From: Candidatus Kapaibacterium sp.
GTDB taxonomy: Bacteria; Bacteroidota; Ignavibacteria; Kapaibacteriales; UBA2268
DNA length: 64,000 nucleotides
Reading direction: 5' to 3'
Assembly: GCA_013414795.1 (NCBI GenBank)
Contig: CP058732.1
Location: 1,463,950-1,527,949 of the forward strand
Each line of letters begins with the position of its first letter. The stretch's first letter is position 1. Below are positions 13,080 to 17,806 of the stretch, one piece after another. Below the pieces are notes generated by a model. The model was not told the origin of the DNA. It ran no database searches and saw only the letters and a list, made by a program, of their open reading frames with translations. The translations under genes were made by a program, and so were the position numbers.

Positions 13080-14873
13080 ATGGCAGAGTTAAAATTTAAA
13101 TACAGACTTTTTGTATATATCGTTGGATTTTTCTCCATTGTTTTCGTTCTTCGGCTTGCATATCTCCAAGTCCTAAAAGGAAGTATCTACAAAATAAAAT
13201 CTGAAACCCAGGCAATAAAGGCCCAAATTGTTTATCCCTTTCGCGGAAATCTTTACGATAGGGACGGAAATCTTCTTGTGTATAATGCACCCTCTTTTAG
13301 TCTGCAAATTTCGACTGAAAATTTTCGATTGGACCGTGCACCTCTCCTTGGAAAAATTTTAGGTATGGATAGCATCGGAGTCTACGATTTAATTTTTCAA
13401 AATATTTTGAATTATCGTTTTGGCGATGTAAAAGTATTGCGAGACCTTGACTACGAAACTGTTCAAAAGATTGAAGAGTATTCCGATTTGCTACCGGGAG
13501 TTGAAATCGTTGTGGAATCGAAAAGGATGTACAATCTGAAAGCAAGAATGTCTCACATAATTGGCTACATCCAAGAGATTTCTGCCGAAGAGTTGAAGAC
13601 CGAAACTTACTATAATTTGGGGGATTATGTCGGTCGAGCAGGTTTAGAAAAATATTACGAAATGGAACTTCGTGGATTGAAAGGTAAAAGATTTGTTGGG
13701 GTTTATGGCTCTGGATTAAAAACAGAAAAATTCAACGAAGGAAGAGCCGACGTTCCAGTTAAAAATGGAGACGATTTGATATTATCTATTGATTTAAAAT
13801 TGCAATCCAAAGCTGAAGAATTGTTGGAAGGTAGGCGAGGGGCAATTGTTGCAATAGATCCAAATAATGGAGAGGTGCTTGCTTTGGTTAGTAAGCCAGA
13901 TTATGATGTTTCAGTTCTGAGTGGCAAAAATTTTCAAGAAAATTATAGGCAATTGGTTAATGATAAAAATAAACCGCTAATCAATCGAGCAATACAATCG
14001 AGATATCCACCAGGTTCTACTTGGAAGCCGTTAATGGCAATTGCTGGACTTGAAGAAGGTGTTATCGATGAAAGAACAACATTTTTCTGTGGCGGTCAAT
14101 TGATGTTTGGGGATAGGGCTTTCGGGTGCCACGGAGCACACGGCAATGTAAATGTGACCCGAGCAATTCAGGCTTCCTGTAATGTTTTCTTCTACCAACT
14201 TGCCTTGAAATTACAGTTAGAGAGAATTTCGAAATGGGGTTTAAATTTTGGATTTGGTAATAAAACTGGAATCGATTTACCGTTTGAAAACACTGGTGTA
14301 TTTCCAACTTTGGAGTACATAAAGAAAAAGTTCGGGAGTTTGGATCGAACTCCAAAAGGTCTTTTGTTGAACTATGGAATTGGGCAAGGAGAAATTTCGG
14401 TTACTCCAATGCAAATGGCAGTTTATGTTTCTGCAATTGCAAATGGAGGTACAATATACACTCCTCATTTGGTCCGTGCTATTAAAAATAGTCTTTCCAA
14501 TCAAACAACCCTGGTTAATGTTAATAGTAGGCAATTGCAAATTTCTCCGAAGAATCTTGAAATAGTAAAAAAAGGTATGTTTGATGTGGTCAATACGCCT
14601 GGAGGCACTGCGTTTGGAATTAAGATTCCAGGCTTAGACGTATGCGGTAAAACTGGAACCGCACAAGCGCCCCAACCTGGTCAAATGGATCATTCTTGGT
14701 TTATTTGTTTTGCACCCAAAGACAACCCCAAAATTTCATTAGTTGTTATAGTTGAAAATGCTGGGTTTGGTGCTGCTGTCGCTGCTCCAATTGCAAGGGA
14801 ACTTTTGAAAGAGTTCTTCAACATTAAAGAAACAGTAGTTCAAGTTGACTCTTTAAAAATTCTACCAGATTAA
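13080..14873 (+). CDS. mrdA: Penicillin-binding protein 2 (peptidoglycan transpeptidase)
   Basis: This is a class B penicillin-binding protein of 597 residues. It has one N-terminal membrane helix (about 8-28), the PBP dimerisation domain with RGNLYDRDGNLL near 60 and YAE-like GLEKYYE near 195, and a transpeptidase domain. The catalytic motifs are visible: SxxK as GSTWKP (about 313), SxN as SCN (about 364) and KTG as CGKTGTAQ (about 522). The family crosslinks peptidoglycan in the cell-elongation complex with RodA and MreBCD, none of which lies nearby. The next gene follows after 65 bases with its own GGAGG site. Confidence 0.96.
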   Translation: MAELKFKYRLFVYIVGFFSIVFVLRLAYLQVLKGSIYKIKSETQAIKAQIVYPFRGNLYDRDGNLLVYNAPSFSLQISTENFRLDRAPLLGKILGMDSIGVYDLIFQNILNYRFGDVKVLRDLDYETVQKIEEYSDLLPGVEIVVESKRMYNLKARMSHIIGYIQEISAEELKTETYYNLGDYVGRAGLEKYYEMELRGLKGKRFVGVYGSGLKTEKFNEGRADVPVKNGDDLILSIDLKLQSKAEELLEGRRGAIVAIDPNNGEVLALVSKPDYDVSVLSGKNFQENYRQLVNDKNKPLINRAIQSRYPPGSTWKPLMAIAGLEEGVIDERTTFFCGGQLMFGDRAFGCHGAHGNVNVTRAIQASCNVFFYQLALKLQLERISKWGLNFGFGNKTGIDLPFENTGVFPTLEYIKKKFGSLDRTPKGLLLNYGIGQGEISVTPMQMAVYVSAIANGGTIYTPHLVRAIKNSLSNQTTLVNVNSRQLQISPKNLEIVKKGMFDVVNTPGGTAFGIKIPGLDVCGKTGTAQAPQPGQMDHSWFICFAPKDNPKISLVVIVENAGFGAAVAAPIARELLKEFFNIKETVVQVDSLKILPD

Positions 14874-14938
14874 CTGTAACTTTTTCCCTTTTTATGAATT
14901 ATTAGTTTTTGAATTATTTTTAAATTTTTGGAGGTTCT

Positions 14939-17197
14939 ATGAAGAAAGTTTTGTTTTCCATCTTCGTTTTTGTTTTTACTTTTTTAATGTTCTCTTGTAG
15001 TGAAAGCACTAACCAGACAACCGAGGAAAACTCGATTAGCGGTGTACTTGTGGACGAACAGGATATTCCAATACCAAATGCAATAATGTACTTGGTTAAA
15101 GTTTCGGATGGTAAAACAAAAACTCTTGTAAGCGAGGAGGTAGTTGCAGTCGATACAACTGACGAAGACGGAAATTTTGATTTTAAGAATCTTCCACAAA
15201 CCTTGGGTTCAATAAAGGTTCGAATAATTCACCAAGATTTCAAGATTTTCGAGGATTATCTACTTTCTCTTCTTGAAAAACAACACCGTAATAAGATGCG
15301 GGTTAAAATGTTCCACAATGATGACTGCTGTGGTAAAATTATTATCAGAACAATAGATCAAGATTCTGCTGTGGTTGGAAATGTCGAGGTGCGATTAAAT
15401 CGAGGGCGGGATATTATCAGAAAAATTAAAACCAACGACAATGGTTTGGCTGTGTTCGAAAATGTTTGTTCTGGTTCCTATTGGGTAAGGATTGCCAAGG
15501 AAGGCTACCAGGTAATTGAAAGAGAATTCAATCTTGGCAATTGCGATACATTAGAATTCACTTTTGTTTTGAACAGAAGGGAAGTTGATACTTGTTGCCG
15601 AGGAGTGATTGGTATTGAAGTGAAAAATCAAAATGGCGAAATTTTAAACGGTTCGATTGTGAAACTTCGTAAGAATGGTGAGTTGTTAACTACTCTAACT
15701 ATTAGAGAAAACCAACCTGTGTTTTTCCGTGAACTTTGCCCAGGAACTTATAGTCTTCTAATTCTGAGAGAGGGATACAAAGCGGTCGAGCGTAATGTTA
15801 CAATTGAATGCAACGACTCGACATTTGTTTCCGTCCAGATGGAAGTAGATACTTGTTGCAATAGTGTCTTGCGAGTTGTTGTGAAAAATGGTGATGGGCA
15901 ACCAATTCCCCAAGCAAAAGTAACTATTTGGAAGTCTGGAACAAAACTTGGCTACTATTTGACGAATGATGATGGGGTGGTTGTTTTCCGAGAACTTTGC
16001 AATGGGAAGTATGGATTTGATATTCAAAAAGAAGGATATAAGAGTATCGAATTCAACGTTGAAATTGGTTGCAACGAGGAGAAAGAAATTACAAAAGTAC
16101 TTCAAAGAGCAGAATCTGATTCGTGCTGTAATGGTGCTATTAAAATTGTTGTAAATAACGGGGAAGGGCAACCAATAAGCCAAGCCGAAGTAAATCTCTG
16201 GAAAGATAACCAAAAAATTGCCACATCATCAACCAATAATGATGGATTCGTTATTTTCAATAAACTTTGCCAAGGTAAATATGTCTTTGAAGTTAAGAAA
16301 GAGGGCTTCAAAGCAATAGAATTTGCAGTTGAATTAGGATGCAACGAAGAAAAGGTTGTTACAAAAGTTTTACAAAGAAATGAAACCGATAGTTGTTGCA
16401 AAGGTGTACTGATACTTAAAGTTAAAGACAGAACAACTGAAGAAAATGTGAATGGTGCAAGAGTTAAAATGTGGAAGAATGGTCAAGTGATTAAAGATGG
16501 GACGGTTTCCGAGGGAAGAGTCGTCTTTACCAATATTTGTCCTGGACAATATGGATTTTCAATTCTTAAGGATACATATAAATCACTTGAATTTTCACTA
16601 ACTTTCGAGTGCAACGATACATTGGAATTAACTAAGTTGCTCGAAAAAGAAAACCAGGATACTTGTTGTAAAGGTCGAGTTGTTTTATTCGTGAAAGATT
16701 CTTCCAATAATAATCCACTTTCTGGTGTTGAGGTAAGGTTGTATCAAGGTAGCCAGAAAAAAGCAGTTCAGACTACTAACGAAAATGGCAGGGTGGTTTT
16801 CGAAAACTTATGCAGAGGGAATTATCAAATTTCGATGACAAAGTCTGGCTATCAAGGTATGGAATTCAATTTTGAATTGGATTGTAACCAAACAAGAGAG
16901 TTCGAGAAATATTTGGTTAGAAAATCTGACACTTGTTGTACAGCACGTTTAAAATTAAGAATAGTCGATGATTCCACTGGTGCATATATACAAGGAGCAA
17001 GGGTTTTGGTTCGTTACAATGGCTCGAATATTGCGGATCCAGTTTCAAATGCTGAGGGATGGGCTGTTGCCGATGGATTATGTGCCCCACGAACATATTC
17101 GATTCGAGTTTCTGCTGAGGGTTATCAAGTGAGAGAGTTTACTATAACTTTCCAGGAATGTAATACAATTATGGAAACAGTCAGATTAAGAAGATAG
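14939..17197 (+). CDS. Lipoprotein with seven tandem Cys-patterned carboxypeptidase-regulatory-like repeats
   Basis: This is a 752-residue lipoprotein: the signal peptide ends FLMFSC with the acylated Cys near residue 20. A first CarboxypepD_reg-like domain (SGVLVDEQDIPIPNA) is followed by seven repeats. The repeats begin with a Cys-Cys pair encoded at 15326, 15593, 15854, 16124, 16394, 16664 and 16934, that is every 87-90 codons. Each repeat has the order D-[DST]-C-C, a beta stretch, a [LVI]-C-x-[GP] turn, EGY- or SGY-like residues and a C-N or C-D near the end, giving four conserved Cys per repeat. The fold is probably a string of transthyretin-like beta sandwiches held by disulfides. It follows PBP2 and ends at a strong terminator. 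The function is unknown; an adhesive or spacer role at the cell surface is my inference. Confidence 0.85.
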   Translation: MKKVLFSIFVFVFTFLMFSCSESTNQTTEENSISGVLVDEQDIPIPNAIMYLVKVSDGKTKTLVSEEVVAVDTTDEDGNFDFKNLPQTLGSIKVRIIHQDFKIFEDYLLSLLEKQHRNKMRVKMFHNDDCCGKIIIRTIDQDSAVVGNVEVRLNRGRDIIRKIKTNDNGLAVFENVCSGSYWVRIAKEGYQVIEREFNLGNCDTLEFTFVLNRREVDTCCRGVIGIEVKNQNGEILNGSIVKLRKNGELLTTLTIRENQPVFFRELCPGTYSLLILREGYKAVERNVTIECNDSTFVSVQMEVDTCCNSVLRVVVKNGDGQPIPQAKVTIWKSGTKLGYYLTNDDGVVVFRELCNGKYGFDIQKEGYKSIEFNVEIGCNEEKEITKVLQRAESDSCCNGAIKIVVNNGEGQPISQAEVNLWKDNQKIATSSTNNDGFVIFNKLCQGKYVFEVKKEGFKAIEFAVELGCNEEKVVTKVLQRNETDSCCKGVLILKVKDRTTEENVNGARVKMWKNGQVIKDGTVSEGRVVFTNICPGQYGFSILKDTYKSLEFSLTFECNDTLELTKLLEKENQDTCCKGRVVLFVKDSSNNNPLSGVEVRLYQGSQKKAVQTTNENGRVVFENLCRGNYQISMTKSGYQGMEFNFELDCNQTREFEKYLVRKSDTCCTARLKLRIVDDSTGAYIQGARVLVRYNGSNIADPVSNAEGWAVADGLCAPRTYSIRVSAEGYQVREFTITFQECNTIMETVRLRR

Positions 17198-17205
17198 AAA
17201 CTTTT

Positions 17206-17242
17206 AAAAAAAGTAAGGGAGTTTTTCTCCCTTACTTTTTTT
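17206..17242 (+). terminator. Intrinsic terminator after the Cys-repeat lipoprotein
   Basis: A perfect inverted repeat AAAAAAAGTAAGGGAG/CTCCCTTACTTTTTTT with a 5-T loop and a terminal T-run lies 8 bases after the stop codon. It is symmetric and could act in both directions. Confidence 0.9.
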
Positions 17243-17275
17243 ATTTTTGTTTTTCACAAATGATTAGTTTTTGCT

Positions 17276-17806
17276 ATGGTTAGTCGCACTCTGAAAAATA
17301 TATTCTTTCTTTTTTTGATATTCATTGTCTCTTGTAATGTTTCAGATGAAGAAAAAACAGCCCAGTTCGTACCTTTCCGCGATTTTTTGAATCTTGTTCC
17401 TGGATTCGAATGGTTTAACTTAGAGTATAATAAATACAACCCCGATGCTAATATTATTCAACAAATTGATTCGCTTTGGAAAGTAAAAGGTTATCGTTTT
17501 TACATTTTTGCGAATCCGAGTTGCAATTGCGACAATACTCAATCAATTTTTCCAATGATTTGTAAAATCTTAAAGTCTTCGAATGTACCAGATTCGGCTA
17601 TGTTTATTTATACAATGTTGAATACATCGTATAAACATCCATTTATGCATAAATTTTCGGTTAAGAAATTGCCATCTTGTTTTACCGAAATTGACTCTGC
17701 TCGTTCTTTTTATTTTTCTGTAATCGATACTTTTGAACTGTACCGCTTGAAATATCCTGGAAAATACCCAATGGAGCGAATCATTTTAATGAGTCTTGAA
17801 AAATAA
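17276..17806 (+). CDS. Lipoprotein, possibly thioredoxin-like
   Basis: This is a 176-residue protein with a signal peptide ending FIVSC, a good lipobox. The mature part contains FYIFANPSCNCDNTQSIFP followed 60 residues later by KKLPSCFTEID. This recalls the strand, active-site helix and cis-Pro loop of thioredoxin-fold proteins, but with Cys-Asn-Cys in place of Cys-x-x-Cys. The assignment is weak. It stands alone after the terminator and its stop is 12 bases from the stop of the convergent glycosyltransferase gene. The start lacks a clear ribosome-binding site. Confidence 0.65.
   Translation: MVSRTLKNIFFLFLIFIVSCNVSDEEKTAQFVPFRDFLNLVPGFEWFNLEYNKYNPDANIIQQIDSLWKVKGYRFYIFANPSCNCDNTQSIFPMICKILKSSNVPDSAMFIYTMLNTSYKHPFMHKFSVKKLPSCFTEIDSARSFYFSVIDTFELYRLKYPGKYPMERIILMSLEK

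Follow-up and report, generated by a model that had tools for sequence, protein, structure and literature searches.

Directly behind the PBP2 gene mrdA of a Candidatus Kapaibacterium sp. genome lies a lipoprotein gene whose product carries four cysteines in each of seven tandem repeats, which raises the question of what so regular a set of cysteines does in repeats of a kind that normally lack them. We examined this question in a 64,000-nt window (the whole stretch of DNA that was analysed, contig CP058732.1, positions 1,463,950 to 1,527,949; Table 1) and in related genomes. An earlier note on this DNA had described seven repeats of 87-90 residues with a strict CC-C-C pattern, and this description proved correct down to the codon positions: the CC codon pairs lie at 15326, 15593, 15854, 16124, 16394, 16664 and 16934, the repeats are in order 89, 87, 90, 90, 90, 90 and 87 residues long, and the cysteines within them are spaced CC-x45-47-C-x23-25-C. 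Together with Cys20, they make up the 29 cysteines of the protein. The repeats are 24-59% identical to one another, and the cysteine pattern has therefore outlasted the divergence of the remaining sequence. What the earlier description missed is a Cys-less CarboxypepD_reg domain ahead of the seven repeats (residues ~31-128), whose PF13620 match in the genome scan (1.8e-6) falls under the family cut-off. Cys20 (codon 14996-14998) is the predicted lipidated residue because the signal peptide ends in LMFSC; it is invariant across 15 aligned relatives, and the mature lipoprotein begins with CSESTN.

Table 1. Features of the lipoprotein locus, in window coordinates
Feature	Position	Strand	Basis or remark
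mrdA/PBP2 gene	13080..14873	+	TIGR03423, E 3.8e-173; PF00905, PF03717
Shine-Dalgarno GGAGG of the lipoprotein gene	14930..14934	+	sequence
Cys-stapled (predicted) CarboxypepD_reg repeat lipoprotein, 752 aa	14939..17197	+	
Type II signal peptide and lipobox LMFSC	14939..14998	+	sequence
N-terminal Cys-less CarboxypepD_reg domain	15029..15322	+	PF13620; AlphaFold2 beta strands
Repeat 1, CC-C-C	15326..15592	+	
Repeat 2, CC-C-C	15593..15853	+	
Repeat 3, CC-C-C	15854..16123	+	59% identical to repeat 4
Repeat 4, CC-C-C	16124..16393	+	
Repeat 5, CC-C-C	16394..16663	+	modelled with repeat 6, pLDDT 95.4
Repeat 6, CC-C-C	16664..16933	+	
Repeat 7	16934..17194	+	distinct C-terminal cap type, judged by sequence
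Intrinsic terminator, 17-pair stem and T run, ends transcript	17205..17243	+	

The Pfam family matched by the protein is PF13620 (CarboxypepD_reg; 1.8e-65, 217.7 bits against a cut-off of 32.3, in eight stretches), as its comparison with carboxypeptidase-regulatory-like repeats in the earlier note had implied, with weaker overlapping matches to related prealbumin-like families; NCBIfam gave no name for the lipoprotein. Fifteen sibling PF13620 domains of the same genome are nearly Cys-free and none has a cysteine at the middle position, which bears out the view that such repeats normally lack this set. A known Pfam family thus covers the repeats, but its sibling domains do not share their cysteines, and the claim that no family of this kind had been described stands for the Cys-stapled subfamily, which Pfam and NCBIfam do not name, and fails for the well-known fold family. 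A literature search returned no paper on Cys-bearing CarboxypepD_reg repeats or on Kapabacteria lipoproteins. With phmmer, the single protein gave no match in the PDB; a profile built on repeat pairs (an alignment of triple repeats fell into two registers) matched NOMO2, B. anthracis TIE and SdrD, and the fold is therefore known. AlphaFold2 predicts seven strands per repeat for the adjacent repeats 5-6 (78 alignment rows; pLDDT 95.4), with CC just ahead of strand A, the third cysteine (C3) in the two-residue D-E turn and the fourth (C4) in the F-G turn. If the strands alternate up and down, this predicted topology, rather than any distances, would bring the four cysteines to one pole of the domain, at the joint with the preceding domain, as a disulfide reading would have it. 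The angle between the domains is uncertain because the pair model has a pTM of 0.53. The full-length model has eight domains (pLDDT 83.5), the best Foldseek matches are CnaB, TIE and pilin domains (CnaB2 8bdw at an rmsd of 1.7 A), and each repeat is predicted to be a CnaB/transthyretin-like seven-stranded beta sandwich.

Of 60 related genomes, 39 encode relatives of the lipoprotein, and a profile scan of genome contigs returned carriers named Candidatus Kapabacteria/Kapaibacterium, Ignavibacteria and Bacteroidetes MAGs. Among 396 evenly drawn Bacteroidota genomes, the CC-C-C pattern was confined to the window's order and one further genome of the same class. The members are lipoproteins, most of them with a Cys-less N-terminal domain followed by about 3 to 11 repeats. 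Across 231 full-length repeats of the window's relatives, conservation of the Cys columns is 93-100% (with C4 counted allowing a one-column shift), higher than in almost all other columns, and the pattern is thus kept in homologues. It is very improbable that the protein is an ordinary CarboxypepD_reg lipoprotein whose cysteines are incidental passengers of repeat duplication. CarboxypepD_reg repeats are indeed common, and repeats 3 and 4, at 59% identity, speak for a duplication origin; but the repeats share no more than 24-59% identity and have diverged over many genera while the Cys columns have held, and the non-family PF13620 domains of the same genome lack such cysteines almost entirely. 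Hence what is known here is the fold and what is unusual is the cysteine set, and we regard this variant of the CarboxypepD_reg/CnaB stalk, Cys-stapled and restricted to one clade, as real. Last repeats are closer to one another (40% mean) than to inner repeats (28%), and the last repeat, judged by its sequence, is a distinct cap type, with the signature CCTA-LKL ... LCAP-TYS ... EC-T--ET-RL in repeat 7. One candidate, G195, was rejected as an ordinary CarboxypepD_reg protein without the cysteines, and matches in Geomonas and Terriglobia were rejected for want of the pattern. A 2043-aa protein of Geomonas limicola (L108:1114-7242) has ten CarboxypepD_reg-like repeats and 53 Cys, with neither the CC-C-C pattern nor CxxCH.

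All four cysteines are present in 202 of the 231 full-length repeats. One of the CC is gone together with C4 in 12, mostly first repeats, and together with C3 in six, all of them last repeats; C4 alone is gone in one, and the others that lack the full set are fragments or domains devoid of Cys, most of the latter N-terminal. No repeat among the 231 keeps CC while having lost both C3 and C4, and none has lost both CC while keeping C3 and C4. On a rough tree, these losses require at least four changes in first repeats and as many in last repeats. In the same-class genome outside the order, an inner repeat has CTNG in place of CCNG, with C3 gone and C4 kept, thus suggesting C2-C3 and C1-C4 pairing there. 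The cysteines therefore vanish in pairs, which indicates two intra-domain disulfides, and the most likely pairing on this comparison is C1-C4 and C2-C3. This pairing reads clearly from the C3 losses (CCTA to CKTA, CCNG to CTNG), whereas it is ambiguous in the first repeats, in which a one-residue deletion could shift either cysteine. Being conserved and co-lost as pairs, the cysteines behave as those of a disulfide-stabilised CnaB domain would, and the two disulfides per domain proposed in the earlier note fit both observations and probably form. The same four cysteines, gathered at one pole in the predicted fold, could also form a four-Cys site that binds a metal ion (Zn, Cu(I) or Fe) in the cell envelope, in which case the protein would be a metal-sequestering or redox surface lipoprotein. 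This is quite unlikely in our assessment: complementary pairs have been lost in two different ways, leaving two cysteines each time, as fits two independent disulfides and not one tetrahedral site, and there is neither a conserved His nor CxxC spacing in the repeats. A vicinal CC is also uncommon for a mononuclear metal site.

We consider it probable, though some way from certain, that the protein is a lipid-anchored, disulfide-clamped stalk, most likely located outside the outer membrane, with its cysteines paired as described. Lipidation at Cys20 would be followed by a short tether, one Cys-less CarboxypepD_reg domain, seven CnaB-like beta-sandwich domains in line, the last of them a distinct cap, and such a stalk may have a presenting or adhesive role. 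In each repeat, C1 (the first of CC) would bond C4 in the F-G turn, and the partner of C2 would be C3 in the D-E turn, with both staples at the N-terminal pole of the domain, the junction with the preceding one; at this position they would fasten the incoming chain to the two hairpins, making the rod stiffer and protecting it. The staples would take the part that isopeptide bonds play in the CnaB stalks of Gram-positive bacteria, and stalk length would be tuned via repeat number. Of the stiff rod at the outer membrane that had been suggested earlier, the rod is plausible from the Foldseek matches and the full-length model, and stiffness would be a property of the stapled junctions. Relatives with an intact start carry a lipobox, and 28 of 48 have an acidic residue at +3. 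In surface lipoproteins of Bacteroidota, the lipoprotein export signal (LES) is acidic and lies right after the +1 Cys, as C-X-K-(D/E)2 or a species variant (PMC5080379). The acidic +3 residues are LES-like in a suggestive way only, and the K-(D/E)2 rule of Capnocytophaga does not fit the start of the window's protein, CSESTN. To our knowledge, no LES has been established for Kapabacteria.

The gene's position directly behind PBP2, as first reported, holds: 65 nt separate the end of mrdA from its start. No terminator-like site was found on the + strand between the two genes, and the 17-pair terminator follows the lipoprotein gene, so that a bicistronic transcript with PBP2 is plausible. PBP2 adjoins the stalk gene in four of the five genomes of the window's genus, and in the fifth it lies ~2 kb off with a 131-aa ORF in between; in other genera, PBP2 is adjacent at 3 of about 30 loci (in three genera), while ~27 have different neighbours. 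Linkage to mrdA, which the earlier note had proposed as a check in relatives, is thus found in the genus and in three others and is local, not general, and we rejected it as a general feature of the family. These data bear on an alternative in which the protein, expressed together with PBP2, would serve cell-wall synthesis as a spacer or scaffold in the periplasm, held by its anchor in the outer membrane. The terminator-free gap, the strong terminator past the lipoprotein gene and the adjacency or nearness to PBP2 throughout the genus and in three other genera are what such a scaffold would lead one to expect, but we hold it to be unlikely given the different neighbours at most loci of other genera, the range of about 3 to 11 repeats, which leaves the length unfixed, unlike what a periplasmic ruler needs, and the acidic residues past the lipidated cysteine, which resemble a surface signal. 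The 131-aa ORF of the fifth genome (G003, L052:10512-10907, - strand) has two CxxC pairs and by eye resembles an IS1-type InsA protein. Past the terminator in the window, a gene for a 176-aa lipoprotein with a CNC motif (17276-17806, + strand) gave no match in Pfam or NCBIfam; its place beside the stalk gene is conserved across the genus (five of five genomes). In one group of relatives (L095, L097, L103 and L110), a conserved run of genes for proteins of ~245, 260 and 265 aa lies downstream of the stalk gene, and the first of them looks like an ABC-transporter ATPase.

The proposed stalk can be compared with several known systems. It is like PF13620 CarboxypepD_reg in its sequence match, its G-x-Y and G-Y/F landmarks and its predicted seven-stranded sandwich, and unlike it in the conserved CC...C...C of every repeat, which the siblings in the same genome lack, and in being a long homotypic array carried by a lipid anchor. 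Isopeptide staples are common among the CnaB stalk domains of Gram-positive bacteria. Such stalks (SpaA, SdrD B, B. anthracis TIE, CnaB2) provide the best fold matches and, like our protein as predicted, form rods of tandem domains that are each covalently stapled; in contrast to them, two disulfides are predicted here instead of isopeptide bonds, and the anchor is a lipid. Sortase (LPXTG) anchoring was not found in the protein, which has a lipobox instead and stops in its last repeat. The actinobacterial pilins FimP, FimA and SpaA also have disulfides within CnaB-fold domains of a surface shaft, such as C385-C449 of the FimP C-domain, which links sheet to hairpin, but theirs is one disulfide per CnaB domain, at other positions and in addition to isopeptide bonds (PMC3485203). 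Several isopeptide families often carry disulfides as well, and the stalks of Gram-negative fibrillar adhesins likewise have covalent staples in their CLIPPER/DUF11 domains, although with a CnaA-like fold, a local CTTC disulfide and an isopeptide bond (PMC12617251). The family appears to be a parallel to isopeptide stalks in a Gram-negative group, with two disulfides in each of up to about eleven domains. With a subfamily model, annotators could tell Cys-stapled stalks apart from CarboxypepD_reg proteins at large, which are very common.

Actinobacteria use disulfides in their secreted proteins, whereas here DsbB and VKOR are undetected: their profiles found nothing in any of the 60 relatives of the order and gave matches in control genomes. 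Thioredoxin_4 was absent from all 30 genomes searched, and DSBA from all five genomes of the window's genus. Overall, DSBA is present in 15 of 60 genomes, some of these matches may be cytosolic DsbA-like proteins, and most stalk carriers are without detectable DsbA; divergent oxidases could have been missed by the profiles. We also compared cysteine usage in an 864-kb sample of the window's own genome (forty 20-kb stretches, with the window included; crude gene caller). Predicted exported proteins have 8.7 and cytosolic proteins 9.3 Cys per 1000 aa, which is no depletion, and even:odd Cys counts of 45:72 and 82:101, respectively, show no even bias. The same script applied to a small control sample of E. 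coli K-12 (200 kb) gave 5.8 against 12.2, a depletion, and 10:5 against 22:34, an even excess. The failure to detect DsbB and VKOR in the relatives and DsbA in the genus, and the lack of Cys depletion and of an even-Cys bias in exported proteins, count against the disulfide stalk, and the undetected oxidases and the lack of a disulfide signature in exported proteins are points in favour of metal binding. They also expose a gap, namely how Kapabacteria without detected DsbB or VKOR would oxidise up to about 22 disulfides per protein. Because DsbB and VKOR are undetected in the 60 relatives and DsbA in most carriers, we tentatively raise the possibility, without favouring it, of a clade-specific, doubly stapled Kapabacteria stalk with an unrecognised oxidation route, whether through an envelope oxidase not yet known or through oxygen acting spontaneously on the exported protein. 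The genome encodes a haem-copper oxidase, and oxygen-driven oxidation of a surface protein is therefore possible. The same genome sample contains two exported proteins of ~218 aa (L119:396-1049 and L118:17307-17963) with 16-18 Cys and near-identical signal peptides.
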